64,000 nt of DNA from Cryoendolithus antarcticus (taxonomy: Eukaryota > Ascomycota > Dothideomycetes > Cladosporiales > Cladosporiaceae), in the NCBI GenBank assembly GCA_002077065.1, contig NAJO01000047.1, forward strand, positions 1 to 64,000, in the 5' to 3' direction. The notes beneath the pieces were generated by a model. The model saw nothing but the letters and a program-made list of their open reading frames with translations. It had not been told where the DNA came from and searched no databases. The position numbers were made by a program, and so were the translations under genes. Shown piece by piece: positions 2,695 to 62,831 of the stretch (position 1 is its first letter; each line of letters begins with the position of its first letter).

Positions 2695-2770
2695 CCAGTC
2701 ATGCTAAGCTATGCCGTAACTCGTGCTCATGACGCCTCATCGCGCAGCTGACTCCCGTATCATCTATGTC

Positions 2771-31522: not shown

Positions 31523-31567
31523 ATGAGAGGGCTTATTGAAAATCTAGAGAAAAAGTAGGTCGCGGGG

Positions 31568-31609
31568 ACAACGCGGCTGAGAGCGGGAACAACGCGACTG
31601 AGGGCGGGG
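31568..31609. repeat. 21 bp tandem duplication
   Basis: Two adjacent 21 bp units (31568-31588 and 31589-31609) differ at three positions. They lie just after the stop of the broken GTPase gene, in a short frame coding an acidic Asn/Ala/Glu/Gly stretch that ends at about 31698. This may be a remnant of the original C-terminus. Confidence 0.7.
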
Positions 31610-31884
31610 ATGGGGTTGACGAGGAGGACGATGCTCCGGTGGCGCATCCGACACCCAACTTCAAGGTGGAGAAGCAGGACCTCAATGCCACGATGTGAGG
31701 CACGTACGTGGCGCTATCCGAAGTTGAGCGACGCAAGCGGAATGTGGCTGAAGGAGAAGGTTCTGCGGTGACTATGCATGGTCGGCGACAAGTACCTATC
31801 GGCTCCGCCCTTCGCTACCAATAGCAGCATCGAGACTGTTACACACATTCCATCCCATTCTTCCACTCCATCATAAAGCCACGC

Positions 31885-34096
31885 TCAGAAGTTCTTCCCC
31901 GTATAAGCACTTTGCACACTCGCAAATCCCTGCGGACACTTCCTCCCCAACGCCACACTCCCACTCCTGATATAACACACCTTCGCCTCCGCACAAGCCT
32001 CACTAGTACAGTTCGGACTCTTCACACTGCTCTTCCCCTGGTAAGTATTGAACTTCGCCACAAGGCTATGATCCTCCCCCATAGCCTCCGTGACAGCGTG
32101 CCAAAACGTCGCGTTCAGTGGCGCAGAGCTCGACCAGTTTGCTGCGGGCCCGTAGGCGTCGCGCGTGGAGTATTCGAATTTGTAGGTTGGGCCTGTGGCG
32201 TTTAAAGTTGCGAAGGAGGAGACGTCGGCGTAGTAGGTGTATGCGTCGTAGATTTCGAAGTTGCCGGTGTCGACTTCGTAGAGTCTGAAGCCGCTGTTCA
32301 GGTTGGTCAATGGCGTGACGCTGGGTCCGATCCAGCCTGCTGATAGCGCTGTGTCGCGGGATTGCACGGTCCCGTTGTTAGCGTAGTAGATCATGACTTG
32401 ATCCTCGTGCGTGTGGCCCCAGAAGACGTTGGCGATGACGTGAGGACTGTAGCGTTCGACGATGGCGTAGAAGAGGTTTGAGGGGTTTGCCAGGGGGTTT
32501 GAGCCGTCCCAGCCGGACAGGACGTGGGCGAAGAGCCAGACGCGCTCGCCTGCTTTCTCGGCGGCGTCAAGCTCGGAAATTACGAAGGCGAAGGAGGTGG
32601 ACGCGTCGGGGTTGGTAGTGTTGATGTAGTTGAGGAAGTTTGCTGGGGAACATTAGAGGTGTGGTGGTTGTAAAGGGTGGAGAAACTTACATTTGTACCA
32701 GAAGTCGGAGTTGAAAGTGATCATGCGGACGCCATAGTGGTTCTTGATGGAGTAGCCGCCGTAGTGCGTCTTCGCTTCAGCCTCAGCAGCATCGTCGATC
32801 CAGCCATTCAGTCGCCACAGCGATGCTACATGGTTGTAGTTCCAGCTCATCTGTTGCCTTAGATTGCCAGGGAGCGACTGCGGTGCATCGATAGCTTCCG
32901 GATTGCTGTCATGGTTGCCAAGGACTGGGAACACTGGTCCGGTGAGATACTTCTCGAACATCGAGTACACGCTCTCCTCAGCATACTCTGTGAATGCCCT
33001 GCTAAGTTGAGACTGGGGATCGTGAGCTACGAGATCGCCCGTATAGATCGTCCATGCCAGTGGGTCGTGCTTAGAGGTGCCAGTCAGAGTCGCAACGGAC
33101 TGGAGTGCAGCGAGCCCTAGATCGTAGGGAGTATCGCACTTGTATGCTCCGAAGGGCGGGGCAGGCATTCCGATCTGGCCGACAGGCAGTGCCGTGTTGG
33201 GGTTATTGCCTCGACAGCAGAGATTGCTGCTACAATTGCCCTCTGCACCGACCTTGTAGCGTGGGTCAATGTGGAAGTCACTCATGTGCAGCACTTTGAC
33301 ACACTTGCCACTCGGCTTCCAGACCTTAGCGTTAGTAGGCTTTGGGCTCGGGAAGTAGCTAGACACGTTGAGTGGAGCAACACCAGGGTATGGGCAGAAA
33401 GTGCTGGACAGCGAATTGCAGATCCAGCGACCATCGGTCCCAGCGACGTCAGCAAAGGCGAGCACCTGGGTCCAGATCGCGCCAAAGGTGTCTGCAGCAA
33501 AGTCCTCCTCGCAGGTGGCGTTCGAGTGGAACTTGTACTTCACGCACAAGTCGACGAACATCTGCGGGACCAGCTCTGGGGCCAGCTGAGCGGCACTCTT
33601 GGCTACGGACAGTGCTGCCAGACATTGCGAGCAGTTGCTGCCGAACGAAGTACTCGAGATGACCGAGCCGACTTCTGCGACAACGCTGGCAATGATTGAC
33701 TGCTGGTCGAGGGCTGCGAGGTTCACGATCGGTACAGGAAAGTACTCTGGATCCGGGTCGTGGTCTGGGATCGTGTCCGGGTTGGTCAAGTTCAACGGGT
33801 ACGTGATGTTGAGGACTGGGTCGTATCTGGCTGGTGTGAGTGCATTGCCTGGCATGTGACACGGGCGATGCTTACAATGCAGGCTGAGGCTCCTGTCCAG
33901 ACGGCACCGGATAGTACGACGAGAATGCCGAAGTCGGGAAGCCCGTTGGAGCAACATAGCTCGATGCGCCAGGTAGTCCAGTACTGCTATGGCTATGTCC
34001 GCCATATGATGGAGGCGCACCATACGAAGACTGATGTGCTAATGTGAGCTGCGCCATAGCAATCGCCATCGCTGACGCTAAAGAGGAGACCATCAT
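31885..34096 (-). CDS. Secreted acid sphingomyelinase-like phosphodiesterase
   Basis: Exons are complement(31885..32642, 32691..33826, 33876..34096), 704 aa. The N-terminus MMVSSLASAMAIAMAQLTLA is a signal peptide, followed by a Ser/Gly/Tyr/Pro-rich stretch. A saposin-B-like Cys region follows (CSQCLAALSVAKSAAQLAP and further Cys). The calcineurin-like metallophosphoesterase core has DFHIDPRY, GDLVAHD, GNHDSNPEA and GHTHED, the metal-binding residues of acid sphingomyelinases. Many N-glycosylation sites and paired Cys fit secretion. It hydrolyses sphingomyelin-type lipids or related phosphodiesters. Introns of 48 bp (32643-32690) and 49 bp (33827-33875) restore the frame (WYKSNFLNY and QPALYDPVLN). 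The loop HVLSGWDG occupies the place of the usual His-containing loop. It is divergent from AIM32, with a 399 bp shared upstream region. Confidence 0.92.
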
Positions 34097-36790: not shown

Positions 36791-38606
36791 TGTGGCGTGG
36801 GTAAGGCAAACGGAGCGTTGTGTTGTAATTGCTGTACCCGCTCACGTCCCTGGTATGGTCCTAGATATCTCTTACGCACTTATGATGTTGCGATCGTACA
36901 ATCCTGCCTGAATCGAGACGGTGAGTGGCAAGGAGTTCGCAGAAAGAGAGCACAGAGATGCGACCGACACAAAAGAAACACAGCGCACGACCTACCATCT
37001 CCGCCCCGACATTCTTCCCGTCAAGCCACGCCAATAGCATACGCTCAGACCAGCGATCCCAACGCCATGCAGCTTGTATCGTGCAAGGCTGTGAAGCTTA
37101 CGCCAGCGAGCGAATCCCGGTCACGGCCTCGTGAGGAGTAGACGAGGCTTATCGTTAGGTCTCCACACTCACACTGCTACGTTGCAGGGTGATCGTCAAG
37201 CTTGCCTGCTGACATAGCTGTCGTGTATCAGGCCATCGACGCTCGTGACAGCTGTGGTGTTACGGGTTCGTCTCGGGGCTGTGCTTTGTCTCGCCACGAG
37301 GTTTCGGGAAGTGCTCGTGCGACATGTTCCTGCTCGAGGTGCGTGCTCGGCACGTGGTCTAATAGCGGCGTCTGTGCAGCGAGACGGAGGATTGACTCGG
37401 TTCTGTAGCTAAATTAGTTGAATGAGGCTGAGCTAGACGACACGGGATCTCAGAGGTGAAGTCGGGTGGTGCCGCCAACGCGCCGGTATTCCCACTGTAG
37501 ACAGCCATCGTCTCGAACTGTCGAGCACTTCTGAGATGGAGGCACTGTAGGAGCGAGGGACCGTCAACCAAGCGACAGGTTAAGTCACTCGCAGCACGCT
37601 CGAAAACACAGCTCAGCATCCACTATGCCGACAATATTGTGATGGCTGCTCTACAGCGCGCATCAACTGAAGCATTCATCACAGACGATTGCCCGATTAC
37701 TTGCCTACCATGCCTTGGTACCAAACAAAATACCTCTTTCCAAGTTGAACGGTGCCGATAGATTTACGGGCACCGTGTTTCGATCCAGCCTCCCACAAAG
37801 AGTTCTCCGTGGCGCTTCACCACGTTGGGCACATCGCCCCGATGTGGATGTTGCAATGCTCGGGTTCGATGGCGGTCCTACACGACGCTGCTGCTATGGG
37901 CGGATTCGAAGGGAATTTACAGTGTGCCTGGTGTTGCTGACTGTGTATTGACACATCAGTGAATAGGCCATGCATGATGCAACACTGTGGACGATGTTCT
38001 GTTGTCGAATGTCGAGCAGTCTGTCATAATATCGCGCCTCCCTCACTGGAGTGGTCCACACTATCCTTCTCGCCATTTCACTGTGAGCAACACTTGTGGG
38101 CTCGTGCAGGAACAGCCTCAATCTCATCGCACAGCATCGATCTCCGTATCACGAGCTTTCCGCACCATCGTTGACACTGTTACGGCGTGTGGCCCTCTTG
38201 CGCGGCTTCTCCGGCCTCGACCTGGCATCACGTACTACATGCTACATCTGTCCACGACAATCCTGAGGTAATGCCTGGTCCGCACTCCCTCCAGGTGTTG
38301 AGTGTCGGCCTCGTAGGCATCGAGGCGAACTCACAATCACTCGGTATAGAACACAGAACAGTGCTTATCGCAAAAACAAGGCTGCGATTCAGCCTTGCAG
38401 TAGCGGACGCCTCTATGAGGGGTCGAAGCGGCATCGTACGTCCAGGCCCTGGAGCGCAAGGCTGATGAGTAACTTGCTGGAAACATCCAGTGCGCTGTTC
38501 GCATTTCACGTTCATCTGTCTTCTTCTGACGCATTTGGCCGTCATTGCAACTCTTACTGTCATCACTCAGACCTTCTCAAGACCTTCTCCGGAACCTCTG
38601 ATCTGC
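36791..38606. other. Gene-poor stretch of 1.8 kb
   Basis: No frame on either strand has recognisable motifs or an acceptable exon structure. Base composition is normal, unlike the AT-rich island at 5.7 kb. It may contain promoters for the flanking genes; I see no repeats or RNA genes. Confidence 0.45.
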
Positions 38607-40971
38607 ATGCCGCGTCGATATGGCGTCTACTGGGTGCCGCCCGTTACAATGACTCTCGCGCTCGTTGCTGGTTGCGTCGCGGCCATCGCCCATCACGTCT
38701 TCTACTCGGTCCTTGATGGCACCCCTGTGGGTGACCCATACCACACGAGGCTGACGAAGAGCATGCCACAGCAACAATTCAATATTGCGGTCGGTAGCAC
38801 GCTTGCCACAATTGTGAAAATGCTGCTTGCGCTTGCCGTCGGTATCGCGTGCGCGCAAATACTATGATACGCCCCGAGATCAGTTCAGAGAAGTCCAACT
38901 TTAGCAGACTTGGACTCCCTTCACTCGCTCCTTTCGGACGTGATTAGTCTGGTCCGAGTGGATGTGTGGTGGCGATACCCTGCTCTCATCGTGCTTGCCA
39001 TGATTGCTTGGTAAGTCCTCACCTTGCGTACGTTGCAACGTCTTATTGAATGGTATTTTCTACAGGTGCATCCCGATTGCTCCTTTGGTGACCCCGGCCA
39101 CCCTGTCCGTCATCAGCGTTGCAGTCAACACTACCGGTTTTGCCAGTGTTCCCAAGTTTGACTTTGTCACCTCAGCGTACTTGGAGGATATGCCACGCCT
39201 TTCTGGTTACTCCGCCTGGAACGGTCCATCTTACCCGGTCGGGAACCTAGCATCATCCATCATTTCGCAGGGCGCAATTCCTGTTCTTCCGACTCCGGCT
39301 CAAAATGCTACCTGGAATCTCAATTTCTGGGGTCCTGCCTTAGACTGCAAGTCTCTACTAGGGACGGCGCGAGATGAGATGTGGATGGACTGTTGGAATG
39401 GGCTGAATACCACTCAATCGATGTTTGGTGAGGTGGGTACTTTCACATACCTCTCGTGGTTGTCGTCGGACTGGTCCAGTGTCAACATCTCGGCAAGTCC
39501 CAGTGACTCTGATGCAGTGTCTTATTACGAATTGCTCGAGCAAAGCATGGAGATGCCTTACAACGGATCGACGAGTTCAGGGGTTCCTCTACGTATATAC
39601 GTGGCCACGCTGCCTAGAATGAACGAATTGGTTTTTTCGCGCCGATTTGTGTACAACGGATTCAATGGAACCCATGAGGCCATCGTGACCCTCGACGACC
39701 ACAATTTCACCGACCAGTACCCGGACCCGGACTCCCAGAAGCTATCAGTGTGCGACTGGAGCACAATTGAAGCCCTCACAGAAACCCTACCGTGCAGTGG
39801 AGCTCCATTAGCTGATGGGCATCGCGACCAATACATGCCCGGCACATACTTCGAAAATGGTACGCTCTTGCAATGCGACGTCCTGAACACGTCCTATTCT
39901 ATGGACTTCTCCTTTATCAATGGGCACTAAGAGATCCGCGTGAGCCGGAACACAACTGGAACTTCGCCACCAGTAGGCAGCATAAGCAAGATGTACACCG
40001 GCTCCAATGATGCTTGCCTCGAATTGGATGGGCTTGCGCAGCCCTGTGTCTTTGATGCCGCAGCCATTCGACTTTTATCGTATCAAGCCATGGTCTCGGC
40101 GTTCCATGAGCATTTTTCTGGGTACGTCCGGATGCAAGGAGACAGCCAGGAGCACGAATTTCAATACGCCCAGCGCTCGCTAGATTTCAATACCAGCGTG
40201 ATGGGAACGGTCTTAGCTGATACCAAGGAGATCATTTTTTTGCGACAGTCAGTGGCTTTGACGCCGCAAGGTCAAGAGGTCTTTGGGGACACTCTCAAGA
40301 ATCACCTCAACCAACTTTCAATGGCCACAGAACTTCCTTTCGCAAACTTTGCCAAGTCCTACAACCGCAGCACCGGGGTCAGCCTCCAAGATGCGCTTGA
40401 AGAGCTTTTCCAGAATTTTACGATCAGCCTGCTCTCGGAGCCATACCTACAGTACGTGTCGGGGCTTCACTCGCACCTTCACATCACCGCCAGCTCAGCT
40501 GACTTATATAGGCCTAATTACAGTTCCCCATACACCCCAGAACCTTCCGCCCTCGTCACCTTCTCGACCTTCCACAATGTCTACACCTATTCCTACCGCA
40601 CCCTCTGGATTGCTTACGGTCTCGCAATCGTTTTCGCAACCCTATCAGTCCTGGGTGGTGCGATTGCTCTACTACTCAACGGCGCATCCTACAGCACGAC
40701 CTTCTCCACTATCGTCCGCGTCGGCCGCACAGTACAACTCAGCGAAGAGGTTTCAGCCGCGGACGGAGAGGGCTTCGAGCCGCTACCGAAACATCTCGCT
40801 AAAGCAAAAGTGCGCTTTCCACACACAAGAAGTGGCTCCGCCGCGCCATCTTCGGAAGCCAGCCGAGAGCGCGAGAAGGAGCCAAGTGTCAATGTGAAAT
40901 CGCAGCTACTGTCTCCAGAAGAGGCAGAAAGGCGAGATGCAAGAATGGGCGCTGATCCTGCTGATCGTTGA
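38607..40971 (+). pseudogene. Fungal multi-pass membrane protein with large glycosylated domain, two in-frame stops
   Basis: Reading from ATG 38607 (MPRRYGVYWVPPVTM) gives a membrane segment and AIAHHVFYSVLDGTPV, typical of a large fungal family with N- and C-terminal membrane helices around an extracytosolic N-glycosylated domain. The reading joins at a 55 bp intron (39011-39065, GTAAGT..TACAG), giving AWCIPIAPLVTPATLSV. The frame is interrupted by TGA (38865-38867) and TAA (39928-39930) but remains coding on both sides of each, with NXS/T sites and a last helix (LWIAYGLAIVFATLSVLGGAI). A tail with Ser/Glu repeats ends at TGA 40971. The TAA follows SFINGH where Gln (CAA) would fit. I infer a pseudogene or a null allele. 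An ATG at 38490 is also in frame. Function unknown. Confidence 0.62.
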
Positions 40972-41055
40972 GCTTCTGGCCGCGCAGGGTACATACAGCT
41001 TACTCACTACCGCGGAGTCTACAGCGCTTACCGCAACCTTACAATCTACAATACA

Positions 41056-43078
41056 TCATCCCTTCCGCTTCCTCGCACTTCCCTTGTCCTCGATCGCACT
41101 GACAACCTCCGCCTTTTCCTGCGCGTTGCCCCCAGCTTTCGCCTCAGGCTGCTTGCCCGCCACCACCTCCCCAGCTTTGACTCCCTCCAACCCCTTCAAC
41201 GGCTCATCTTCCCCACCCTGCCCGAACTCATTGATCCTCGTCGGATCAACCTTGTATGCCCAAGCTTGATATAGATAGACGAAGAAGATTACATCGTCTC
41301 GCAGGGTAGCGAGGCGATGCAGGATGGGCATCTTGATCGTGAAAGCGAACAGGTCGTCGATGAAGGTGTTGAGGACTTTGTACATCATGGCGCGGGCGGG
41401 CATGTGGGCTACGCTGCGGAGGCGGTAGTTGATGTAGAGGGATGGGATCTGCGAGGGAGCGTCAGCAGGGAGGGAGAAAGCGGAGGGGAGAGGAAGGAGC
41501 TTGTACCATCATTAAGAAGCCGTAAGCATAGACTGAGCCGACGAGCGTGGTCAAGATGAATGAGTACCACGACTTGTGGCTGTCGTACATCAGACTGTAC
41601 ACCGCGTAGGCGAGCAAGAGCGGCACAGCGACAATCCCCATGTACTTGAAAGCAATCTTGTCGTACTCCTCGGTCTTCTCCTCGGTCTCGGAGAGCTTGT
41701 GCTTGTCTTCGAACACGACGACATAGGGTAAGATGCCATTGAACCTCGATTCGGGTCCAGGCTCACGCAGCCGCACATCAACAGCTTTGGTGATCTTCCA
41801 CGCCTCGATCGCAACGCCCATGCCCTGACCAAAGAGGATCATCCAAGAAGTGTTCTCATTGTTGTCAAGGAGGTAGAGGAGAATCACAGTCTGCATGAAG
41901 ATGTTCGCCAAGATCGTCCGGACTGACACGCCGACATTGTCTTTCTTCTTCCGCCAGTGCCCGACGTCTGATTTGAATGCTAGCAGCTCGAAGATCATGT
42001 GCAACACTGAGACGATGGCAGTCGTGCCGAGGAGATAGATGTTAGAGTCTAGTAAGACCTGCTTGATCATCTCCATCTCACTGCCATCGCCGCCCGTGGG
42101 CCCGACTTCGCCATGAGCAGCTTTACGAGCAGTCTCTTTCATGCCTTCGTCAACAGTAGCCATGAGGCTGAATTGCCAGTTCGAGATGCTGGAGAGCTGT
42201 ATGTTCAAGGGCAGGGTTTTGAGCGGGATGGTGGTGTTGAGCTCGACCATGTCTTTCTTCATCTGCCAGAAGGTGTTCCAGTAGATTACCGGATAGTACC
42301 AGCCGTTCTTGCCGGTGGAGTCTCGGGCTCCGCTGGGGTCTAGCGGGTAGAATTGCCGGACCGAGGGGTGCAGGGTGGTGTACTGGACGTTGCCCGTGTC
42401 TGCAATGAAGGTGAGAGTGACGTTGGAGTGGTAGTAAGAAGCGATTGAGGCGGCTTGTGGAGTTACTTCCTCGAGATCCGAGGTCTCGTTCTTGGCTGAA
42501 AGAAGATTGCGCCTCTTGAATGTCTTCTTGCGTGCAAGGTATTGTGTCAATGGCCGGAGTACGCGGTATGCCTTCGACGGATCGTAGCTGTTCGATGCGG
42601 GATCGAGTTCAGCGCCAGTCTTGCCGACGAAGATGTGTGCCCAGAGTGTGCCGTTCTCCTGCACGGTCTGCGGCACAGATATGCTCGTCGTGATCTCCCT
42701 TGAGTCCTTGCCCTTCTCCAACAAGAACCCGCGCTCATCCACGACCAGCGTCCCAGCTGGCATCGACCTGAACGGTGGCATCGCAACACTCGGCGAGACA
42801 TACACAGCAACATCTACTGAAGTGTTCGCCGGCCATAGCGGGTAGACGCCCTGAGGTATCGGACTCCACTCGCCCTCCACTGGCGCTGAACCTCCTGCGG
42901 TGTCTTGCACGACTTCAGGTGCGGCAGTCTTTGACGACATTCCCATGAACTGCTTGATCGCGAATTGCACGCCGACAAAGATGGCGATGTTCTTGCCAAC
43001 CGACCATGCCTTTTGCTCCCATGTCGAGCCTTGGTTGAGGCCGAGCGCCGTGGCGTCGCCGTTCTGTGCGGGAGGCAT
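41056..43078 (-). CDS. CLPTM1-family multi-pass membrane protein
   Basis: Exons are complement(41056..41448, 41507..43078), 654 aa. The lumenal domain begins after one N-terminal helix (GKNIAIFVGVQFAIKQFMG) and contains WPANTSVDVAVYVSPS, GTLWAHIFVGKTG and YYPVIYWNTFW. It is followed by about five membrane helices and the strongly conserved VGHWRKKKDNVGVSVRT and WKITKAVD blocks of CLPTM1/CLPTM1L. The 58 bp intron (41449-41506) restores GFLMMIPSLYINYRLRSVAHMP. The C-terminal tail is Lys/Glu/Gly-rich. Family members reside in the ER/Golgi; CLPTM1L has been reported as a lipid scramblase in animals, so a glycolipid-handling role is possible but not shown here. It borders the small-gene cluster divergently. 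Confidence 0.93.
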
Positions 43079-44016
43079 TGCAGCGGTGCGATTTGATCTG
43101 TGAAACCGACCTCTGATCGTAATGATCGAAAAGATGCGCCTTCACAACGACATTATATTGGCGATGTACGTATGGCGCAAGGCGACTCGACCCACGTGTT
43201 TTGCACATGTCGTCGGAGTTGCCGGAGTTTAGGATCTGGACGTCACTCTGCCTCCTCTGCGCAATAGACATGCACTCTCCTGCTTTCACACTTGGTCACG
43301 AATAAATATCCTGGGATAAGTCCGAAGATCGACGCTGAGACTTCCGTCTGCAGTCACTGTGCTCAGCGTGATTCACAGCACCCTGTGAACGGACAAGACA
43401 AGCACCCCTGGAAGTGAACTTCTTGTCTCCCAGCAGGGATGCAATCGCAATTTTCGCAGACGACTTACATCTACTGCCCACCTGGCAATCTCACAGGCTC
43501 AGTCGACCATGCATTGACGTTCATCGTGGCGCGCGGCTCGCTTGCCATGAAGGAGTCGGTATACTAATCAGTCACATTTTGCGGATAGATGCAGCTCAAC
43601 ACCTGCGCTCCTGGAGCGGCATTTCCAAAGCGCAGGGACTCGAAGCCTTTATATGAAGAGAGACTGATCTTGTGGCTGCCGTCTTTGTTTGAGCTGTGGT
43701 CGAAAGGCGAAGTCCCGATTGAGTAAGCAGCAAGTCCATTGTCTACATCTGGTCATTGTTAGTCAAGCGGCAGCGTCGCGGGATGGAGACATGCATCCAA
43801 CCGCGTGGGAAGGTCATGACCCTTCCGTCGGTAAGACTGGCTCGACCAAATGTTCCTTGATTCCTGCTCCCATCTTTCCTTCCTGCCCTGCCCCTGGGTT
43901 CCGTCAATCATTTGTCGTCGGTCATTCGCTCCAGCTCGACGTCACTCTAAGTCTTCAAGATGAACTCGAACGCCTTACATTCGCCACCAACACCAAAGAC
44001 CGTCAAACTGCCAGCC
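43079..44016. other. Spacer between CLPTM1 and small-gene cluster
   Basis: 938 bp separating divergent genes. Short frames (for example 43414-43656 and 43689-44057) lack any family character. An in-frame ATG at 43960 could extend gene A by 19 residues. Confidence 0.45.
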
Positions 44017-44780
44017 ATGGTTTCCGAAGTCCATCTCGATCTCACCGGCATCGGTGACCGTATCGCCTCCGAGCTAAGGGATGCACCCAACGATATGAGG
44101 CTGGATAGCAGCAACATGCTCACCGCAGACGATATCGGCAGGTCTGTCGGCAAGGCCATCAAGAAGCGTCTCAGCGAGACGAAGGCTCAAGACGGAGAGA
44201 GCCAGAAGTCCATCGGCCAGCTCAGCGCTACGAGTTTGGTGCAGACTCAAGTCTTATCCAAGCTCGTTGATGCTATCCACAAGAAGGAGGATATGGCTTT
44301 GGCCGCCGAGGATGCTGACGAGGAGTCTACTGTCTCTGAGGCCAATGACGACACTGGACTGGACGCTGCGTCTCTTCGCGAGATGTCCATCAGTAAGTTG
44401 ATAGCTGTGGTGCTGCATATCAATTATTCACAGGTTGACTCATGATAGTGCACGCAATGCACCTCTGGGACCTCACTCACGAGTAGCGGAAGCCGTCGAA
44501 GATGCGCATTGCCATTTTCGAAGTCGAGGGAGGACTCCAAGCTTCAGTGGTGTACACCGAGAACAAGATCGATCATCGCGCCTGCGTCGGCGGTCGAGCT
44601 ATTCCAACCTGCTCCCTTGATGGCTATCACTCCCACACCTACAAGATAGCCGTCAACGTCGCCTATCTGGAAGGTGCAGTCAGCAGCTCTGACTTCGCTG
44701 CGCTACTGTCGCTGTACGCTTACAGCAAGGAGAGGCTCGGAGCTGTTTCGATAGGGGAAAGCTACGTCACGACGGACTAG
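44017..44780 (+). pseudogene. Cluster gene A: small orphan protein with in-frame TAG
   Basis: Exons are 44017..44392 and 44449..44780, with one TAG at 44484-44486 inside exon 2. It begins MVSEVHLDLTGIGDRIASEL, nearly the same as gene B (VSQVHLDLTSVGDRIAAEI). It then has LTADDIGRSVGKAIKKRL (B: LTAEDIGKSVGTAIGKHL). Exon 1 ends LDAASLREMSI before a 56 bp phase-1 intron (GTAAGT..GATAG), the same place and phase as in genes B and C. Exon 2 reads MHLWDLTHE, then TAG, then continues RIAIFEVEGG and VVYTENKI, aligning with gene B, which has no stop there. CAG to TAG would explain the lesion. No signal peptide or membrane helix is visible; the product would be about 235 aa and acidic. Function unknown. 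Confidence 0.6.
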
Positions 44781-45085
44781 GTGCTCGTGGCTTGGATCAT
44801 AGCTGATGAAGGGAAAAGATAGATGGCTAGAATTCGGGTCAAGTGGCGAATCGATGTTATCAGGGTGAAAGTGCTTATTGACCTTTTGAAGCACTACCAT
44901 TTCCATATTTGAACTGTCACAGCGGTTTACGGCACTTCGAAGGTCAAACATACGAGCATAGCAACGTGAGTCAAACCTCCATCGCTTATTACACGCCGAG
45001 CTGCGATGCTTCTCGCGTGCCCAGACTACTCTACTCGACCGAGCTCAGCAAAGCATCTTACGTGCAGCGTGTTGCTTCAACTTCG

Positions 45086-45109
45086 CTTCACTTCACTTCA
45101 CTTCACTTA
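45086..45109. repeat. (CTTCA)n microsatellite upstream of gene B
   Basis: Four perfect CTTCA units at 45086-45105 are followed by CTTA. Imperfect units extend left to about 45074. It lies 150 bp before the gene B start and might be part of its leader. Confidence 0.85.
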
Positions 45110-45260
45110 CTCGCACCTTCCCCACCTTGCAAATACCAAGTCTTGGCTACGCGGCCCGCTCACCAGATCACTTTCACGAGTGACTGGAAAGATCTACTGT
45201 TGCTTATGACTTTTCGACTCCACCACTAACACTCGATTGATTTCATCAAGTACATCCATC

Positions 45261-46098
45261 ATGGTGTCCCAAGTTCATCTCGACCTTACCAGTGTGGGCG
45301 ACCGCATCGCGGCGGAGATCAAGGACGCACTGAAAGATCTGAAGATCCACAATGATAAAAGTCTCACCGAGCTGGCCGATCGACTCGCTGCAGAATTTGC
45401 ACCAGCTCTGAGCGATTTCAAAGCGGAGCAGGACAGTATCCTCACCGCGGAGGACATCGGCAAGTCGGTCGGGACTGCTATTGGAAAACATCTCATGGAG
45501 CTGGATGCCAAGATCACCAAGACTGGCAGTGTCATCGAGCATCTCGACAAGGATCTGAGAAACGAGGATGCCAGCACGGTAGTCAAGAGTCCACGAGAGC
45601 TCGAGGACGTACGCGACACGGGCATCACGCCCGTGGAGGCGTTCAGAAACGCAGTCGAGTTCGAGTACGGTCCAGATGCGTCGTCATTGCGCGAGGGAAT
45701 CTTGAGTAAGATGCCCTGACTTGAACATCATCATCAGGCTGACCTCGTACAGAGTATGCGACTTGCCTGTGGAAGCTCAAGCACAAGGGCGATGTGCCTG
45801 AATTGCGTATCGTGATGCACAATTCTGGAGACCCGTCTGAGGATCTCTCGGAGGCGCATGTGGTGTACATGGAGCACAAAATTGTGCTCCGGCCGTGTGC
45901 CGTCGGCGCTACCCTTGCCACATCGAATGCATGTCTCACCACTCCTACCACCAGATCAATCGGATCCGCATGCTGAGTAGCGACACTCAGAGGTTCGAAG
46001 ATCTCGCGCTGGAAGATTTATTTCAGAAAGCTAGGTCTGCATTCGCCGAGCAGGAGAAGCAGTCGGCAGAGCTCGATAGAATTTTGGGAAGGTATTGA
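45261..46098 (+). pseudogene. Cluster gene B: paralogue of A with a frameshift in exon 2
   Basis: Exon 1 is 45261..45705 and the 47 bp intron is 45706-45752 (GTAAGA..GTACAG). Exon 2 begins at 45753. Exon 1 ends PDASSLREGIL, and exon 2 opens with YATCLWKLKHKGDVPELRIV, parallel to gene A. From about 45893 the exon 2 frame turns into Thr/Ala/Ser-rich sequence with a stop at 45976. The neighbouring frame gives HHSYHQINRIRML and LEDLFQKARSAFAEQEKQ, which parallels gene A (GYHSHTYKIAVNVAYL) and the gene C tail, up to TGA at 46096-46098. A one-base shift near 45893-45900 is therefore inferred; sequencing error is the alternative. In exon 1 B is longer than A by a helical insert (LTELADRLAAEFAPALSDF). 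Function unknown. Confidence 0.6.
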
Positions 46099-46574
46099 AG
46101 AAGGAAGTTGGTTCTCAGTCGCGTGTGGAAAGCTACAGAAGCCGTGAGACTTTTATTGCCCTTGCCAACAGATAGGCTGTAGCTGCGCTTTGATTGGCAG
46201 ACCCGGCCACCTCGAAAGACACGGGGCATAATAACCCGACTCGAAAGCTTCAGTGATGGAACGCCGCCAGCATGTTTGGGACAGCCAAAGAGGTGCTACA
46301 GTAGCTGGTGAAGCTCTATCTGGCAGATCTTAGTTCAACCCTAAAGCAAATGTGACGGCGAACAATGTCCGTCTCACCACAATACTTCCATTTCTTGTCT
46401 TGCAGTCTCCTTCCCTCTCTTACATACACGCAGCAATCTTTCAAAATTTCGTATTGTCTCATAACGCAGGCAAGCAATTGACGGACGCGCACACCAACAT
46501 ATATCTACATGCAGGTCTTCCATGTCCTGCTGCATCTTACAGCACCTTGCTCCAAGGGCTCAGCATAGGTAATC

Positions 46575-47531
46575 ATGTCTTCCAGTGCATCATGCGATCC
46601 ACACACTATCGGTGAGCTTGTCATCAACGAGGTGCACAGCTCTACGCACTCCCCTAAGCTGGCTCCAAACAACACTATCACTCCCTTGGAGATCAGCAAG
46701 CAAATTGGCGAGAAGGTCATCGATCATCTCATCAAGCAGAAGATAGGCATCGCCCCCGATGCGAAAGTAGCCTGCTACGCAGCTGCCTGCCGCTACTTCC
46801 GTGAGCGCTTCACCATCGACAACGTCGAAGCACTTCTAGACGGAGTATTCGGACTATGTGTCCAAGTAGAGGCGGTTCTCGACCAAGAATGGGAGGGCTC
46901 TGATGGTACGCAGAATGCCGGCGAGATGCGTGGCGGGGTCTGGTATGATTATGGTGCGAGGAGGAAGGATGGCGCTTTTGCGAAGCAACTGGTGAGAATC
47001 TGACTAATCCTGCGGGACTGACGAAGGAGAAGCTGGAGGTGTTGTCGGAGCAGCTTGCTGAGCAGAAGCATCTGCATGGTGAGGAAGCAGAAAAGTGTGA
47101 TCATTCTGCACATGAGGTGAAGCAGGTGTATGACGGCCTGGATGCTGCTGCCCTTCGTGATCAGATCTTAGGTAAGTCTGAGTACTAATTATGAGCTTAT
47201 GTTACAACGAGGGAGGTGACTGACCACAGCTTTAGCCAACGTCCGCCGTCTCACACGCCTCGGCAGCGTCCATCCGACGCCAGAGATCGAGCTCATCGTC
47301 GATAAAGATGTTACGTTCTACGTTGCTTCTTTTGTCGTGCTTACGCACGTGGGCGAAGTGAGCGACGTATGCCGTATCAGAGAGACTCGCATCTGTCGCT
47401 GTGTCGCCGCACAGAGTACGCTTAAAGCGCTGCAAAGCCTGTTTGAGATCAGTATGAAGGCACTCGAGGATGCAAGGCAGCATTTGAAGGACGAAAACTG
47501 GCTTGTTGATCGCCATGTGAAGGTCGCTTGA
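46575..47531 (+). CDS. Cluster gene C: intact small orphan protein of the tandem family
   Basis: Proposed exons are 46575..46905, 46968..47171 and 47230..47531, 278 aa with no stop. The second intron (58 bp, GTAAGT..CACAG) sits after LDAAALRDQIL in phase 1, exactly as in A and B. The first (62 bp, GTACGC..GGAAG) is less certain but makes all three exons agree in frame. Exon 1 carries ITPLEISKQIGEKVIDHLIK (motif 1) and YAAACRYFRERFTIDNVEAL (motif 2, shared with D and G). Exon 2 is a charged helix (LTKEKLEVLSEQLAEQKH). Exon 3 reads EIELIVDKDVTFYVA and LQSLFEISMKALEDARQHL, resembling the end of B. No signal peptide, membrane segment or known domain. It is the best full-length representative of the family. 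Function unknown. Confidence 0.62.
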
Positions 47532-47828
47532 GGAACTGGTGGGTTTTTGGTTGGCGAGATCTGAGTGAGCGACGGTTGTGCGGCGGTCTTCGTATGGGGG
47601 GATTGCTGGTCTAAAGGCTTCCGATGTCTCGTGACATTGCGTTAGATCGCAGTGTCTACTGGCGTGTAACCAGCTGCAGTTAATGCAAGGCCACATACGC
47701 TTCCTCCAGTCATTCGCCGCATTGTCCGCATTTGTGTCGTATCTGGCTGCTTGCTAGTGACAAGCAGGGTGAGTACCTACCCATAAGTATTTCCCAACTG
47801 CAGCGTAAAATATTGACGCACGGTCATC

Positions 47829-48257
47829 ATGTCTTCCACCCATGAGGGATCCGACCAACGCACTGTTGATCTAGACGCCCTAACAACCTTCAACTCCGAC
47901 GAAATCCACACACTGCTGCAAAAAGTCGAATTTGCCCCCGAGAACATCTGGAACGCCGAAGTCATCGCCCACAGAGTCTGCATGGCTGTTGAGAAGTTCT
48001 TACATCCGGACCGAGATGGAGAGCAAGAACGGACCGCCTCTCGTGACGAGTTTCTGTCCGTATTCCGCCCTGAGCCAACTACGACGCAGCTCCGGGAATC
48101 TTACATCAAGGCTGCCAAGGCAGACTGCGACAAAACATACGGTATAGACGATTCCGAGAGGTTGCTGTGGGCCGTAGATGGGGTTTGTCGGACAGTGCAT
48201 GGCCAGGCGGCGAGACCAGAGGGCCGGGAAGCGCAAATGTTCCAGAAAGGCCCATGA
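47829..48257 (+). CDS. Cluster gene D: short paralogue of C
   Basis: A single open frame of 142 aa from ATG 47829 (MSSTHEGSDQR). It contains IWNAEVIAHRVCMAVEKFL (motif 1) and KAAKADCDKTYGIDDSERL followed by AVDGVCRTVHG (motif 2). Genes C and G have matching blocks with the same spacing of Ala-Ala, Tyr/Phe-x-Ile-Asp and Cys. It ends where C enters its first intron, so D is either a short form or lacks its later exons. Nothing resembling C exons 2-3 is found in the 400 bp downstream. The protein is acidic and predicted helical, with no signal peptide. Function unknown. Confidence 0.55.
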   Translation: MSSTHEGSDQRTVDLDALTTFNSDEIHTLLQKVEFAPENIWNAEVIAHRVCMAVEKFLHPDRDGEQERTASRDEFLSVFRPEPTTTQLRESYIKAAKADCDKTYGIDDSERLLWAVDGVCRTVHGQAARPEGREAQMFQKGP

Positions 48258-48655
48258 CTCGAGGCTATGTGCATGGACAGCCACAAAGCTGATCGTGGCA
48301 GGGAACGAGTGAGTAGGTAGCACGCTCCCTCTTGATCCTCGGCCCCGCCGCATCGATCCAAGAGTAAGCTCTAAGTCTTGCATGTAGTGTCGCCGCAGTA
48401 GCGTCAACTCCCAGATCGAGATGCATGAGGCCGTCGGCAAATCGTTTGTCGCCCATGTCTCTAGCCCAAGACTGCAGCTTGCCGGAAAAGCTGACCACTT
48501 CTCTCAAGCACCATTCCCACAAAGCCCAGCCTCTTTCACACATTCCTGAAAAGCAGCTAGCAATCAGGACCAGAGAGAGAGGTGCATACTCCAACTCCCC
48601 ATTACGCCGACCAAAAACAAACATCTCCGAACACCACCCTCCCAAAGCCTCAAGC

Positions 48656-49178
48656 ATGTCTTCCACCACTCCCATCGCCAACAACACCACCACCACCGCC
48701 ACTACCAACAACAACATCACCTACACCCCCTTCACCACAACCCCCGAATCGCTCTTCGATCTCGCCTTCACCGAAGCCCTCAAAGCGGTGCTCAACCCCA
48801 ATCACGACCCGAACGACACCGAGCAACGCAAGGAGACCGTTGCCAAAGTCCGTCAAAAAGATGCTCAATCTTCTGGCTTCAGACAGTGTACCGGCTCGCG
48901 CTAGCTCCGCTTTGACTGTGAGACAGCAGAGGTACACCGCCCCGGCGAGAGAGCGTTGTCAGGCACGCGGCCTCAAGCAGGCGAGGATGACGCTGCGTCT
49001 GGCTAGCTGGAGTCGTGCGCTGGGGATCGATATCTCGGAGAAGGAGTAGAGGGAGTATGTTGCGGAGGAACGAAGAGGAATTCGTTGGACGGCAGATGTG
49101 GAGCTGGGGAGTTTGGTTGACAGACCGGATTTGAAGGAGTTGTTGGCTTGGCAAACAAGGCTTGGATGGGCCGTCTGA
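48656..49178 (+). pseudogene. Cluster gene E: broken small orphan
   Basis: ATG 48656 opens MSSTTPIANN and an Asn/Thr repeat from an ACC-rich tract. SLFDLAFTEALKAVLNPN and a charged helix follow, and the frame ends at 48904. At the A5 run (48855-48859) a one-base shift would pass into a frame reading MLNLLASDSVPARAS and LRLASWSRALGIDISEKE up to TAG at 49047-49049. That frame continues as REYVAEERRGIRWTADVELG to TGA at 49176-49178. Position, strand and a helical layout resembling the start of G suggest a decayed member of the same family, but sequence similarity is weak. The evidence is a homopolymer shift plus one TAG where CAG would read through. Confidence 0.4.
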
Positions 49179-49591
49179 TAGGTGGATCTCGTGAGTGTAG
49201 ACGTGAGCTGAGATAGGGGGGCGGATGAGCACAGCGTACATGGTTCGAGGAGATCAGAATGACAAAGCTCACAGTCCCGTCGGTATCTCCTCGTCCGTGT
49301 GCTCTCCCATACTGTCTCTATCGGCGTGATAGCTTGGTCACCGACCACACCAGCATGTCGCAGTCTTCTGGGCCATATCAGAACGAACAGCGAGCATTAA
49401 AATCCCCGGCTTAGGTTTCGTCTTTTGCCTCAGCCCTTCGCTGCCGAGCATGCGCTTTGGGGGAGAGTAGTCCATGTTCTTCTCCGGAATCTATCCGTTT
49501 AGCGACCGCAAGCAACAAAGACGAATGGTACCATTTCATTTCAAAGTCAGCGCATAGTTATCCGAGTCTAACGATCAGCCATCCACGTACC

Positions 49592-49831
49592 ATGTCCCAG
49601 TCCGGACCTACCATAGACACCACCTCTGCCGCCCTCAGCGCCCTCATCAAGTCCTCCATTGCTCGTGCATTGCTCTCTGTTGCCCCCGATGGCGGCGAAC
49701 CTGTCACGCTCAGCACACGCCCGGTATATCAGAGAGGCTCAGCTAAGTGGAGGACGTACCATTTGAACGAGATGTTCAACATTCTTTCAATCGCTAGCTT
49801 CGACTGGCCTTTTTCGTCGATTTGCTTCTGA
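49592..49831 (+). CDS. Cluster gene F: short orphan frame
   Basis: ATG 49592 gives 79 aa: MSQSGPTIDTTSAALSALIK followed by a short helix (SSIARALLSVAPDGGE) and a C-terminal part that may be read-through of an intron. It shares with E and G the MS-rich start, a first helix beginning 10-20 residues in, and its place in the array. Shared motifs are too short to prove homology. It may be a remnant or the first exon of a spliced gene. Function unknown. Confidence 0.3.
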   Translation: MSQSGPTIDTTSAALSALIKSSIARALLSVAPDGGEPVTLSTRPVYQRGSAKWRTYHLNEMFNILSIASFDWPFSSICF

Positions 49832-49969
49832 CTCTGACCGTCCAGTGCCACCTAGGACCCTCTGTGAGCCTCGCTCAGCGCTTATGATATAAGAGGCAAG
49901 CTCATCTCGCATCTCGAGAGGGCTATTACTCACTCCACTCATCGTGAACCTAAACCACCTAGCAGCACC

Positions 49970-50338
49970 ATGTCCGCCACCCCCAGTCTTTCCGTCAACC
50001 CGGCAGGTCTACAATTTATCATCATCACGGCTGTCAGTACAGCCCTATCCGGTCTGCAGCTCCATCCCGACGACACACTCGCTGCCGACGACATAGCCAC
50101 CTCCATCGCAACCACAGTCTTGCAGCAAGTACATGACCTGAATCGCCCATCGTCCAACGCAGCCTTGGAGGAAGTCCGCGAGCTATATGGCGCATACCTG
50201 AAAGCTGCGTACGCGTATTTTCATGCTTCCTACGTTATTGACGACGAGGAGAAGCTCCAAGGTCTGGTGGGAGAGTTGGATCGGCATGTATGTGAGGTGT
50301 TTGACGATCGGGATTCGTCGGACCAGGAACAGGAGTAA
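49970..50338 (+). CDS. Cluster gene G: small paralogue of C and D
   Basis: A single open frame of 122 aa from ATG 49970 (MSATPSLSVNPAG). It contains LAADDIATSIATTVLQQV, close to motif 1 of A and B (LTAEDIGKSVGTAIGKHL), and KAAYAYFHASYVIDDEEKL with LDRHVCEVF, matching motif 2 of C and D. It therefore links the A/B and C/D branches of the array. The acidic end (DDRDSSDQEQE) stops before the position of the later exons of C. The preceding leader ends CCTAGCAGCACC before ATG. No signal peptide or membrane helix. Function unknown. Confidence 0.58.
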   Translation: MSATPSLSVNPAGLQFIIITAVSTALSGLQLHPDDTLAADDIATSIATTVLQQVHDLNRPSSNAALEEVRELYGAYLKAAYAYFHASYVIDDEEKLQGLVGELDRHVCEVFDDRDSSDQEQE

Positions 50339-50481
50339 ACGTGGAGAAGATTTGCGGGGCCCATCCCATGGATGATTGGGTCTTTGTGGTAGAGACGGTC
50401 TTGGAGCCTCAAGCGGAAGTGATCTGCCTCGGCAGCACATCAGTACTTGGCAAGGTATGATGCAACTTACAACTCCGTTGC

Positions 50482-54855: not shown

Positions 54856-55772
54856 ATGATCATTGACTATCACCCTACCTTCTACTCTAATATGAGTCCA
54901 CTCGGCGTCGCAGTTCGCAAAGGCATACCAAATAAAAACCCGAAGGTTACTATCAGGGCCGAGCGTGAGACCCTTAGGGCATCGACTTTGCAGCTCCTAA
55001 CGGATAACGATACGCTCCGAGCGTCTAAAGTCGACATGACAGCCACAGTTAAGTGTCTAAGCGAAGACAAAGACGCCCTCCGGATCGCTCTTAGCAATGC
55101 GACCACGGAAAACGAAGATCTGAGGGCGCTCATTGAGGCGCTCAATGGAAACGTTAAAGACCTGGAGACGCCTATCGAGACTTCGAACCGGGCCCTTGAA
55201 GTAGAGAAAGCGGATGCCGATAAGCTAAAGGCGTCAAACAACAATCTCTCCAAGGCCAATAAGGACCTTGAAGCACGGCTCCAGAGGGCCGGCCCGGCCG
55301 AAACAAGCGATGCAGCGTCTTTCCCAAGTCTCGCGAATGATACTATGAACCATCCAGCGGCATACATCAAAGTGCTGAACTTGGTGACAGATGAGATTGG
55401 AAAGTATACTCGCGCCCTCAGAGAGGAGCATGCTAGAACTAGAGGGCTTAAACTCTGTCTCGAAGGTATTGCAGCGGACGACGCATTCCTGATCTCCTCG
55501 GCGGACAATAACTCGCGTGACTTTGCGGTAGCTACACACGACAAAATCGTGCTCTGTGAGCAATTGGCCAAGTTGCGACGTGCCTTTGACCAGGCCAAGT
55601 CTGAAAGTGTGGTCCTCGAACGAGAGGTCGCTCTGCGTGTGCAAGAGAGAATGAAGCGTGCGCCGCAGCAGTAAGTTTCTTTGTCTGGGGTGTGGGATTC
55701 GTTTGCTGACTACACTGTAGGGCGAGTAAAGCTAGCGAATCAACTACCGAGGAAGTGGATATGGAGGACTAA
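54856..55772 (+). CDS. Orphan coiled-coil protein
   Basis: Exons are 54856..55670 and 55721..55772, 288 aa. The 50 bp intron (GTAAGT..GCTGAC..TGTAG) joins QQ to ASKASESTTEEVDMED, giving an acidic tail. Residues about 35-145 form a long heptad-rich coiled coil (LRASTLQLLTDNDTLRASKV, LRIALSNATTENEDLRALIE, LEARLQRA). A second helix lies at about 240-270. No signal peptide or membrane segment. Codon use includes several CTA/CTT Leu and ATA-rich stretches, unlike the GC-ending codons of neighbours such as GH5. This, together with the adjacent repeats, suggests a recent or lineage-specific gene. The function is unknown; an alternative start is ATG 54892. Confidence 0.6.
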
Positions 55773-59083: not shown

Positions 59084-60824
59084 TTATTTGCCATAGTCGA
59101 ACATGACATATCTGCGATCATCGTACTCAATAGCGCTGTTATCAACCTTCACTGCAACCATAGATCGAACGCCATCATAGTCAACTTGGTCTCGCCGGAC
59201 GTAGGTCAGACTCGAGATGTCATCGATGATGTACTCACGTCCCATTGCAGCGACGTCGACGTAGCAGTTCCAGTTTGTAGTGCCGATCATTACCACACGT
59301 AGGACTTTCGTGTTAGCAGGCCTCGTGACTAGGGAATGATACAGAAAGACATTCCATGCGAACAGCCTGGTGTGTTCCCAGACCTCGTGACGCAAGAAAG
59401 CGACCGCTGCATTATCATATGGCTCGCCTGCCGGTGGTTGCGAGATATTTTCTTCCGTCTGGGGAGGGTATACAGGCCAGTGGAGGAATCTGAGAGCCGT
59501 TAAGTTCGGACAGCGTCTGGAGATTCTATCGATCACCGTACGGACGGCACGGGTGCCTGCAGCCCTGCTGTTGCCTTATGTCGTTGTCCCGAGATGAAGA
59601 GAGAGCTCTTCGAGTTCCGTCAAAGCCCGTATAACCGTAGTCAGTATGTTGGGATGAGCTTCACGCACTTCCCAGCCATGGATATCGGCTCTTTCGTACA
59701 CGGTCCATGCAAAGACTCGCAAAGTTTCGTGGTGTCTCGTTATGCTCGCTGTGTTGGGCACCATCCAATCCGCCGGCCCTTTGGTTTTGACGGTCAACTC
59801 TGTGAGACTGGTGCAAGCGGATAGGAAATCGTCCAGAGCATTGGCGTCAGTGTCATCGATAGTAGACAAATGAAGGCCTTGAAGTCTCAGGAGCTCTTCG
59901 TTCTCCTGGAGGACCGGCAGCAACTGCACCAGGAATGTCGAAGTTTTGCTCATGCTGGTTACCTCCAAGTGCTCGAGGTTGGCAAAGTTAATGGCGCGGA
60001 TCAATGTTGCAATCGATCAGCCAGAATCGAGACCTCGTAATGTGAGGTTTTCAACGCTGAGAGGCGGCTCAGTGCTAGTCGGACTCATGTAGTGAAAGAA
60101 GAGAAGCCTGACAGTGTCCCACGCACTGACTGTCGTGACAGGATTGCGAAGTTCTAACTCGGCCTCGGCTCGAGTCTCCGAAGCTTGCGTTTTGGGCCTT
60201 TGATGATTCGATTCCATACTCGAAGATCTCGCTGTTCAAGATGCCCAGAGAATGCGTTCGGTATGATGAGATCTACCAGGTCTGATCGCCAATGCCCGAC
60301 AATGTCGGACGCTAAGAAGATCTCCGAAAGCGCGCCAGCGGTCGATCCTATAACTAGCTTAGTGATCTTCCGCTGCTGTATATAGAGCACATCGAGTACG
60401 TTAGGATCAACTGCCATGTCAAGCGGGGATCTAGGCTCGAGTCAGTACGAGCTCCTAGCCTCGGATCATGTGACACCACCCCGACTTACGTGACCCTCAG
60501 CAACTGATGATTGGGTATTAGCACTAGCACCGCTCTTGCCGTACTGTTGCACTGTTCATTCGCATCCGTGGACATCAGTGGTTCTCTGGAACGATGTATT
60601 CCGCGCACATGGTTGTGGCATGGGTGATTACGTTTGAAGAAGCTGTTGTCCTTGCGCTCCTTCCTAAGATCGATGTGAACGTCAAGGTAGAGCTCAACAC
60701 GAGCAGCATGTCGAAGGTTATTGGAGGCTTGTGCTAGGCGGTTCAGGTCGCTGGACTGGGTGAGGAACTGTGCGACATGTTTTAAGACATCCCGGCCAAG
60801 TGTATCTGAATTCTGCACATCCAT
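59084..60824 (-). pseudogene. F-box/LRR-like gene with two in-frame stops and a frameshift
   Basis: ATG 60824 (MDVQNSDTLGRDVLKHVAQF) begins an F-box-like domain (LAQASNNLRHAARVELYLDV). The 59 bp intron (60431-60489, GTAAGT..CCTAG) gives RVTSPLDMAVDPNVLDVLYI. Near 60150-60190 the reading passes to another frame (LRNPVTTVSAWDTVRLLFFH). In that frame TGA at 60017-60019 and TAA at 59576-59578 interrupt an otherwise continuous LRR-like protein: INFANLEHLEVTSMS, then ALTELEELSLHL, then RRCPNLTALRFLHW. It ends at 59084. The TAA would be CAA before a C-to-T change. I infer a pseudogene; undetected introns could remove one but hardly all lesions. Confidence 0.55.
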
Positions 60825-61950
60825 ATTGTGGATCAAAAGATGGCTTGCAAGCGTTCATGTTCAGCCGAGCGGCGTTGTGCCATACTTCAAGACTCGTATC
60901 GCAGGCCCTGCGGCTTGAGGTATTATCTGCGACGCCGGATCCGGTGCAGCGACATGCGCGGATGCAGAGCATGGTGTAGAACAAAGGGACAAGCTTCCTT
61001 AACCGTCGAGAACGAGTGAAGTCGGGTCGGATGACACGCCCGCTTGGTCGGTTAGCTGGAGATGTGAGCTCGCGTGCAGGTGTAGGCAGGAGCGAAGTAG
61101 ACTGCTGGATTTGGATGTCGGGACCACATCGTGATTGTCGAGACGACAGAGCCTACGCTAGAATGGGAGAATACTATCGCTCGGTATACATGTTCAACAC
61201 CAATGCCAAGCAATACATGGACCGTAATACTTCTACGGTACCTGACAGCTTCTTATCGTCAACGACGTAGACACTCGTGACTTGCTGCATCAGCGGAAGC
61301 GGCATCGATCTTCTTGTCCCGCAGCAGCCATTCATGAGCCATAACGATGGGAGCAATTGGACGTATGCGCAAGTATCATGGTTTTCAAAGCCTCGATTGG
61401 CAAGGCAGTCGAAGGCAAGCGAACCATCAAGGCGCGATAGTTGAAGACCTGATGACTTGATCGCGCTGAAAAGGTCGGTTAAGGGGCGACGCATTGAAGG
61501 AGCTAATATACGAATGCGATGCGTTCGATAGAACAGGTCGATATGCCTACATGTCAAAGTGGAAGTGTAGACAATGTGGAGCTGAGGTCTGTGCAGGGCC
61601 ACCTGAGGCAACAACATGTGTGCCGTTCCAGGAAGGTACTACTTGATGCGTACGGAGCGATCACCACCTTGGACCTCAGTTATCTCGTCACAAGTCCCGT
61701 CAGATACACGCCAGAGTACTTTCGATTGAGGTCTACGAGGCTGACTAGCAAGGGCAAATGCGCCCCGCGTGATCAGGAGTACTGGTCCGGCGCGGCCAAT
61801 CGACGAGCGCGGGGTTCGTGCTTAGTGAAAAGGCAGTCAAGCGGACTACCAAGTGAGTGTTTGTAGTCGAAGCCTTCTCGTCTCATTTGTGCTTCTCTCT
61901 CGATCGGCAGCTCTTCGACCAGATCTCATTCGCACGACCAGAAACTCATC
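60825..61950. other. Spacer upstream of the Cys-Pro/His gene
   Basis: Apart from the possible relic at 61174-61617 (minus) no coding pattern was found. The last 100 bp should include the promoter/leader of the 61951 gene. Confidence 0.4.
61174..61617 (-). pseudogene. Possible relic of an F-box-associated gene
   Basis: The minus-strand frame reads RPLTDLFSAIKSSGLQLSRL, LWLMNGCCGT, MPLPLMQQVTSVYVVDDKKL and LSGTVEVLRSMYCLALVLNM. This is the pattern of the C-terminal region of fungal F-box/LRR-like proteins. No start codon with a credible N-terminus or flanking exon was found in 60825-61950. It lies next to the broken F-box gene and may be a relic of a related copy. Low certainty. Confidence 0.3.
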
Positions 61951-62452: not shown

Positions 62453-62831
62453 GCTCCCCGATGTATCCGGCATGAACACGCTGCATGACGATGATGATGT
62501 GGGTCTTTGAATTAGGATCGCGCGTACGAAGGGAGGGGATTGGATTGGGACACGAGGCTACATCGGCCGTCCCATGGCTTTCAGTACATGTTATTAGTGC
62601 CAATTGGCACGCATCCATTCATGTCTGTTGAATGCCTTACGATCGAGAATTCATGGGGCTGTGCTGTTCTTCACTAAATGTCATCGCTTCGAGCCTTCGT
62701 TCACTCATCTGGTCTCGAAAGATGCGCTACTGCCGCTGTGGCAAGATCCAAAGGCATCGTGTTGCTGACTATAGACTCTCGCACCACCATTATACCGTCC
62801 GCCCACTCTTCTTGCCGCCACACTACCTGCT
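62453..62831. other. Convergent intergenic spacer
   Basis: 379 bp between two genes that end toward each other; no gene or repeat seen. Confidence 0.4.

Follow-up and report, generated by a model that had tools for sequence, protein, structure and literature searches.

What are the small genes that stand in tandem between a CLPTM1 gene and a Gfo/Idh/MocA gene of the Antarctic rock fungus Cryoendolithus antarcticus, and why do the two copies of this array in one genome differ so strongly? The array (A to G, all on the plus strand) lies in a stretch of 64,000 nucleotides, hereafter the window (C92:1-64000); C92 and C89 are contigs of the C. antarcticus assembly (47 Mb, 149 contigs). The species, earlier named Rachicladosporium antarcticum (PMC10739867), lives in the cold desert and has a 47.4-Mb draft genome obtained from short reads (PMC5502844), and a 'massive gene duplication' is mentioned for Rachicladosporium (PMC7325674). 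The window is largely collinear with C89 in the opposite orientation, with 82-92% nucleotide identity in the aligned blocks outside the array (blastn), and gave zero matches to a plasmid collection. An earlier note on this DNA had described seven same-strand open reading frames (ORFs) between the two neighbouring genes, and both the ORFs and the motifs quoted for them are present. Their order, A-B-C-D-(E,F)-G, is the same on C92 and C89. The explanation that we favor as a whole, and which we consider about evenly poised between right and wrong, is an array of a new gene family within a sharply edged divergent block, whose copies turn over stepwise, with a recognition role proposed within it.

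To compare the array members, we built profiles of seven groups (A, B, C, D, E, G of the window type, and G of the C89 type; the two G profiles are labelled G1 and G2) and aligned them pairwise using hhalign, with each E-value referring to a single comparison and 40 column shuffles per pair. When E was left aside, 11 of the 15 pairs reached E <= 0.001 (including C-D, 3e-7; C-G2, 8e-9; A-C, 3e-5; and B-G2, 3e-5), and the four weaker pairs were A-G2 (0.0013), A-G1 (0.018), B-D (0.063), and A-D (0.073). No shuffle matched the score in 14 of these 15 pairs, and one of 40 did so in B-D; the comparison thus rejects chance as the source of the similarity among the five, A, B, C, D, and G, which on these profiles form a single family. 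The claim that A to G all form one family did not extend to E. None of its six pairs was significant (E 0.035-0.86), and the score was reached by 0, 4, 16, 17, 33, and 40 of 40 shuffles, the zero belonging to the C-E pair; against a merged C/D/G profile, 5 of 100 shuffles reached the score. E is therefore best called a borderline candidate member.

In the long members A, B, and C, an N module and a linker are followed by an intron, always at the same place, and by a last exon, whereas the short members D and G consist of the N module and a second block only. In A and B, the intron follows a conserved SLRxxI-type motif and precedes an exon with conserved Cys and His. Gene C (46575-47531) carries an LDAxxLRxQIL motif after the second block, an intron at the A/B position, and a related last exon, which matched the last exon of A/B at E 1e-4 (0 of 100 shuffles). 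C bridges the two architectures, sharing the N module and second block with D and G, and the intron and last exon with A and B. Four of the five slot-B proteins repeat 26 residues of the N module internally (0 of 200 shuffles in each case), so modules duplicate too; the Oleoguttula slot-B protein shows no such repeat (100 of 200 shuffles).

The intactness of the members varies. Exon 1 of gene A (43960..44392) encodes the N module and a linker ending in LDAASLREMSI (protein P0011; 61% amino acid identity to C89 over 145 aligned residues), and the NCBI model of gene A begins at an inner ATG at 44017. The exon 2 region of A (44449..44780) encodes the Cys/His block and contains an in-frame stop (TAG, 44484-44486), assuming the C89 splice position. 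Exon 1 of gene B (45261..45705) encodes the N module with the internal 26-residue repeat, and its exon 2 region (45753..46098) is broken in frame part way relative to the C89 copy, with the first stop at 45974-45976. On C89, the reading frame stays open for 253 residues in A and for 256 in B. Protein models P0010 and P0007 of Rachicladosporium sp. CCFEE 5018 skip the stretches that are broken in the window copies of A and B, and this shared skipping, taken from the protein models only, suggests that the breaks may be inherited rather than sequencing errors. Public models of gene A (43960-44780) in two species (P0010 and P0011) place their splice sites differently across this interrupted second exon; therefore, the automatic annotation is unreliable at this gene. 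In gene C, a first open frame (46575..47003) with the N module and the second block is followed by downstream exons (47004..47531), which comprise the ...LDAAALRDQIL motif, an intron placed as in A and B, and the last exon. In the C89 copy, one possible intron (75 nt, GT-AG) has good borders and removes a mid-stretch stop, but the window copy reads GC at the donor position; because of this donor, gene C may or may not be intact in the window.

Genes D (47829..48257; 142 aa) and G (49970..50338; 122 aa) are intact short forms in the window, and D is stopped after 80 residues on C89. ORF E (48656..49047), a possible member, is frame-broken in the window and open over 144 aa on C89. ORF F (49592..49831; 79 codons) is likely a relic; 180 bases of its region align to C89 at 71%, and no open frame matching F was recognised at the C89 counterpart. 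The 'seven small genes' of the earlier note are thus borne out as intact single ORFs for D and G, while A, B, and C are spliced, E is broken, and F has only 79 codons. For each of A, B, D, E, and G, the genome retains at least one open copy. A Cys had also been described after each second block; it stands there in C and D, lies approximately four columns off in window G, and is missing in P0017. A hydrophobic N-terminal stretch is present in window-type G (P0015) and absent from the other G type (P0017).

Pfam scans of 15 protein entries and NCBIfam gave no family above cut-off, as the earlier note had held, and the Pfam scans of these entries revealed no HET, NACHT/NB-ARC, or related domain; no relative of solved structure was found at E <= 1. 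The proteins are small, show some amphipathic stretches, and come from a cold-desert fungus (PMC5502844), which would suit LEA- or hydrophilin-like amphipathic-helix stress proteins diversified for freezing or desiccation. However, LEA families were among those without a Pfam or NCBIfam match above cut-off, the grand average of hydropathy was only -0.06 to -0.60 in eight proteins, and the helical moment was clearly above shuffles in only two of six proteins (5-6 of 300 shuffles; 24-111 of 300 in the other four). A stress role also does not predict the stepwise replacement described below. It found no specific support here, and we regard it as improbable.

Where does the family occur? Two profile searches of 5.8 billion proteins, in which only proteins 0.55 to 1.75 times the query length were considered, gave 9 matches at E <= 1 among 7676 candidates and 7 among 963. 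All 16 homologues found belong to three Antarctic rock-fungus assemblies: C. antarcticus (3 + 1), Rachicladosporium sp. CCFEE 5018 (4 + 3), and Oleoguttula sp. CCFEE 5521 (2 + 3). In CCFEE 5018, locus tags 01450-01451-01453-01455 correspond to A, B, D, and G, and 07305-07304-07302 to A, B, and D; in Oleoguttula, 012488-012489-012491 correspond to A, B, and D, and two G proteins are on other short contigs. These neighbouring locus tags suggest that the slot order is the same in CCFEE 5018 and Oleoguttula. Within the C. antarcticus genome, a six-frame search scoring the best candidates only placed the members at one locus pair, C92 and C89, and weak single matches (E 0.02 to 4.7) were found on C35, C74, C62, C59, C77, and C13. 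A dispersed family was not seen within the sensitivity of this search, and the C35 ORFs were read as chance. One family at a single locus pair, with the same slot order on C89, supports the local duplication that had been proposed. The restriction to three genomes is weakly tested because even the 2EXR gene of the flank has a best relative outside these genomes of only 45% identity; faster-evolving relatives could be invisible. No title or abstract on the family was found under the host names or the topics of duplication, hybrids, and orphan genes, and no paper names six of its locus tags, in a literature that mostly excludes subscription journals. With homologues in three Antarctic assemblies only, no Pfam or NCBIfam match above cut-off, and no paper found, the earlier statement that this tandem family is undescribed is supported.

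The array coincides with a hyperdivergent block (43254..50481, no strand). Identity to C89 was calculated in 250-base bins, the flanks being only the blocks already aligned by blastn; this leaves out 1-9292, 22828-24824, 27906-31884, 37468-41055, and 59847-64000, an omission that favors the contrast. Bins below 0.65 identity made up 16 of 27 in the array and 1 of 135 in the aligned flanks; two further bins of 0.58 each (43250 to 43749), which lie in the gap from CLPTM1 to A, were counted on neither side. As a baseline, ten pairs of unrelated 2-kb pieces aligned at 0.40-0.44. The block has sharp edges. The left one, at about 43.25 kb, falls just past the 5' end of the neighbouring CLPTM1 (minus strand, 41462-43078; Pfam E 1.4e-159), and the right one, at 50482, coincides with the 3' end of the neighbouring Gfo/Idh/MocA gene (minus strand, 50482-about 51720; identified by Pfam). 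CLPTM1 itself shows 96% protein identity between the genome copies over 525 residues. Divergence in the block is far above that of the flanks in coding and non-coding DNA alike, and bins of the intergenic DNA among A, B, and C are at 0.47-0.60. An island of ordinary identity lies at about 48.0-49.0 kb, comprising the end of D and E; E (48200-49050 stretch) has a synonymous rate (dS) of 0.25-0.27 versus 0.43-0.89 in eight flank genes. The low divergence around E would possibly fit gene conversion.

Tandem duplicates are substrates of repeat-induced point mutation (RIP) in many ascomycetes, and the divergence might be an artefact of RIP or of mis-joined contigs. The genome is a short-read draft, and the second species was scaffolded by synteny to the first (PMC5502844). 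Against this, the RIP indices are normal: the product index is 0.61 in the array and 0.63 over the whole window, and the substrate index is 1.28 and 1.25, respectively, so that RIP is rejected as the cause. For either G type, another species has a close counterpart (98% and 93%), and the neighbouring DNA to the left and right of the array is collinear. We regard an assembly or mutation artefact as very unlikely.

Other differences between the copies were seen in the window. A GTPase-like gene at 28000-31885 (ORF 29221-30723, with a P-loop-like motif seen by eye in the adjacent frame at 28.8-29.2 kb) has no Pfam match above cut-off, and at E <= 0.001 it matches only one further place in the genome, the collinear one on C89. 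Its protein identity between the copies is 33%, with its neighbours at about 85% in DNA, making it a second hyperdivergent slot. The region 37467-41056 (approximately 3.6 kb; ORFs 39190-39930 and 39991-40971) has only about 345 bases at the collinear place of C89, a presence/absence difference near the array. The region 22827-24825 is not aligned to C89, and its ORF 23462-24418 has no Pfam match at E <= 0.01.

We estimated substitution rates between C92 and C89 for the array and for eight of nine flank genes, the ninth (39991-40971) having no C89 match. The nonsynonymous rate (dN) was 0.24 and 0.76 in exons 1 and 2 of A, 0.50 in exon 1 and 0.53 in part of exon 2 of B, 0.19, 0.34, and 0.37 in three parts of C, 0.11-0.13 in D, 0.02-0.06 in E, and 0.93 in G, compared with 0.013-0.10 in seven flank genes and 0.22 in the eighth. 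The dS was raised to 1.07-1.5 in B exon 1, A exon 2, two parts of C, and G, and to 2.8 in the short piece of B exon 2; it was 0.47 in the middle part of C. The dN/dS ratios, which are rough because dS is near saturation in several segments, were 0.09-0.72 in the array (0.14-0.22 in C exon 1 and D) and 0.02-0.41 in the flank genes. Positive selection is accordingly not shown, dN/dS being below 1 in every segment. One flank gene of this set had only weak coiled-coil matches in Pfam. The ORF 54856-55674, which is coiled-coil-like, shows 68% protein identity between the copies and a dN/dS of 0.41; Oleoguttula gene model P0026 fuses its counterpart to the end of the 2EXR gene.

How the divergence arose was examined by comparing slots across species, with A and B of C92 represented by exon 1 only and D of C89 by 80 residues. 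Between C92 and the first copy of CCFEE 5018, the identities were 96% for A, 97% for B, 94% for D, and 98% for G, and these segments are open. Between C89 and Oleoguttula, they were 87% for A, 39% for B, 74% for D (80 residues), and 93% for G (85% for the second G), and between C92 and C89, 61%, 45%, 75%, and 23% for A, B, D, and G, respectively. Slot B is thus at 97% in one lineage pair and at 37-50% in the other comparisons, and G is at 98% and 84-93% within its two types and at 23-27% between them. The odds ratio of B versus A differences was 0.82 for C92/CCFEE 5018 and 10.6 for C89/Oleoguttula (z 4.0, p 6e-5), the pairs sharing no branch and having been picked after the identities were seen; D versus A and G versus A gave no such change (z 0.96 and 0.17). 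On these comparisons, divergence comes in steps, not at a steady fast rate. The rapid divergence proposed in the earlier note is strong in A, B, C, and G and mild in D; it does not hold for E, nor is it steady, given 94-98% identity between C92 and CCFEE 5018.

In phylogenetic trees, slots A and B form separate clades (support 98/95); therefore, slot B was not overwritten by A-type copies. The long branches of slot B were not placed, and the two groupings tested gave approximately unbiased test probabilities (p-AU) of 0.26 and 0.41. For slot G, the grouping of C with the C89-type G was not rejected (p-AU of 0.33), the two G types came together with support of only 68/74, and these trees neither establish nor reject that the two types are different paralogues. 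In a 92-residue fragment of the 2EXR flank gene, Oleoguttula is identical to C89 at 89 of 92 positions and to C92 at 83 of 92. Trans-species polymorphism was considered and is not claimed: this fragment groups as slots A and G do, and since it establishes no conflict of the slots with the flank, trans-species sharing is not demonstrated.

In the mechanism that we propose, the family would have grown via local duplication, with copies gained, lost, and replaced in steps. The proteins would be intracellular and associate through the N module, the short forms (D and G) partnering the long forms (A, B, and C), and the Cys/His exon might bind a metal or a partner. Selection for difference would drive the replacement. 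Tentatively, then, the proteins may be intracellular recognition factors, acting in self/non-self recognition or against parasitic elements; among specific roles, recognition of the kind served by the doc genes of Neurospora appears the likeliest, doubtful as it still is. The role in self-recognition or conflict that the earlier note had put forward as speculation would fit.

Several results weigh against recognition and selection for difference. In the pairwise comparison of C92 and C89, no array segment has a dN/dS above 1, with ratios made rough by dS near saturation in several segments, and several copies have interrupted frames. The G types occur across species, yet the 2EXR fragment groups as slots A and G do. 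The block is not unique, the GTPase-like gene being equally divergent between the copies (33%). The main rival, a serious contender that we place somewhat short of probable, is relaxed birth-and-death of a dispensable lineage-specific family under weak constraint, whose copies are lost and replaced. After doubling or hybridisation, the copies would decay independently, and their differences would reflect old paralogues differentially retained together with lost constraint. The low dN/dS and the broken frames (A, B, and E in the window and D on C89, with at least one open copy of each remaining) fit this explanation as well as or better than recognition, and the two G types need not be closest relatives (p-AU 0.33; support 68/74). 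On the other hand, two species share open frames of 94-98% identity in exon 1 of A and of B and in D and G, dN/dS is kept at 0.14-0.22 in C exon 1 and D, and the intergenic DNA among A, B, and C can hardly be aligned (0.47-0.60), unlike most of the DNA next to the array.

The array resembles systems of known function in part. The doc-1, doc-2, and doc-3 genes of Neurospora crassa are linked diverged paralogues with a communication phenotype, and their haplotypes are divergent between types and similar within types, with trans-species polymorphism (PMC4831770). As in that locus, where copies are gained and lost and divergence is confined to a block between conserved neighbours (PMC4831770), linked diverged paralogues are found here in a block between conserved genes; unlike in doc, for which phenotype and population data exist, the two haplotypes of the array are known from one genome assembly. 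No Neurospora protein was among the 9 and 7 matches at E <= 1, an indirect observation made under length and word filters, without direct comparison with DOC sequences. The het genes of Aspergillus fumigatus are highly polymorphic, with balanced polymorphism in a narrow stretch around the coding sequence (PMC11138114), and the divergent footprint of the array block is likewise narrow. The array family differs from them in having no match to HET, NLR, or another known incompatibility domain and in being known here from sequence alone. Lineage-restricted tandem orphan families of fungi are without a Pfam family, restricted in distribution, locally duplicated, and accompanied by pseudogenes. The array has the same traits and differs by the order kept across genome copies and by its block-wise, sharp-edged divergence.

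A more specific possibility, which we consider quite unlikely, is that two incompatible haplotypes of a recognition locus coexist in one duplicated, perhaps hybrid, genome, the complementary breaks (A, B, and E versus D) having enabled their coexistence. Cryomyces antarcticus and similar Antarctic rock fungi are believed to be asexual (PMC11412873). Should selection for difference act on the block, it would provide a testable recognition locus for Antarctic rock fungi, and would also show the fate of such a locus once two haplotypes join in one genome. Otherwise, the array would be a clean case of orphan-family decay in a duplicated genome, with the second copy and two related species as controls.

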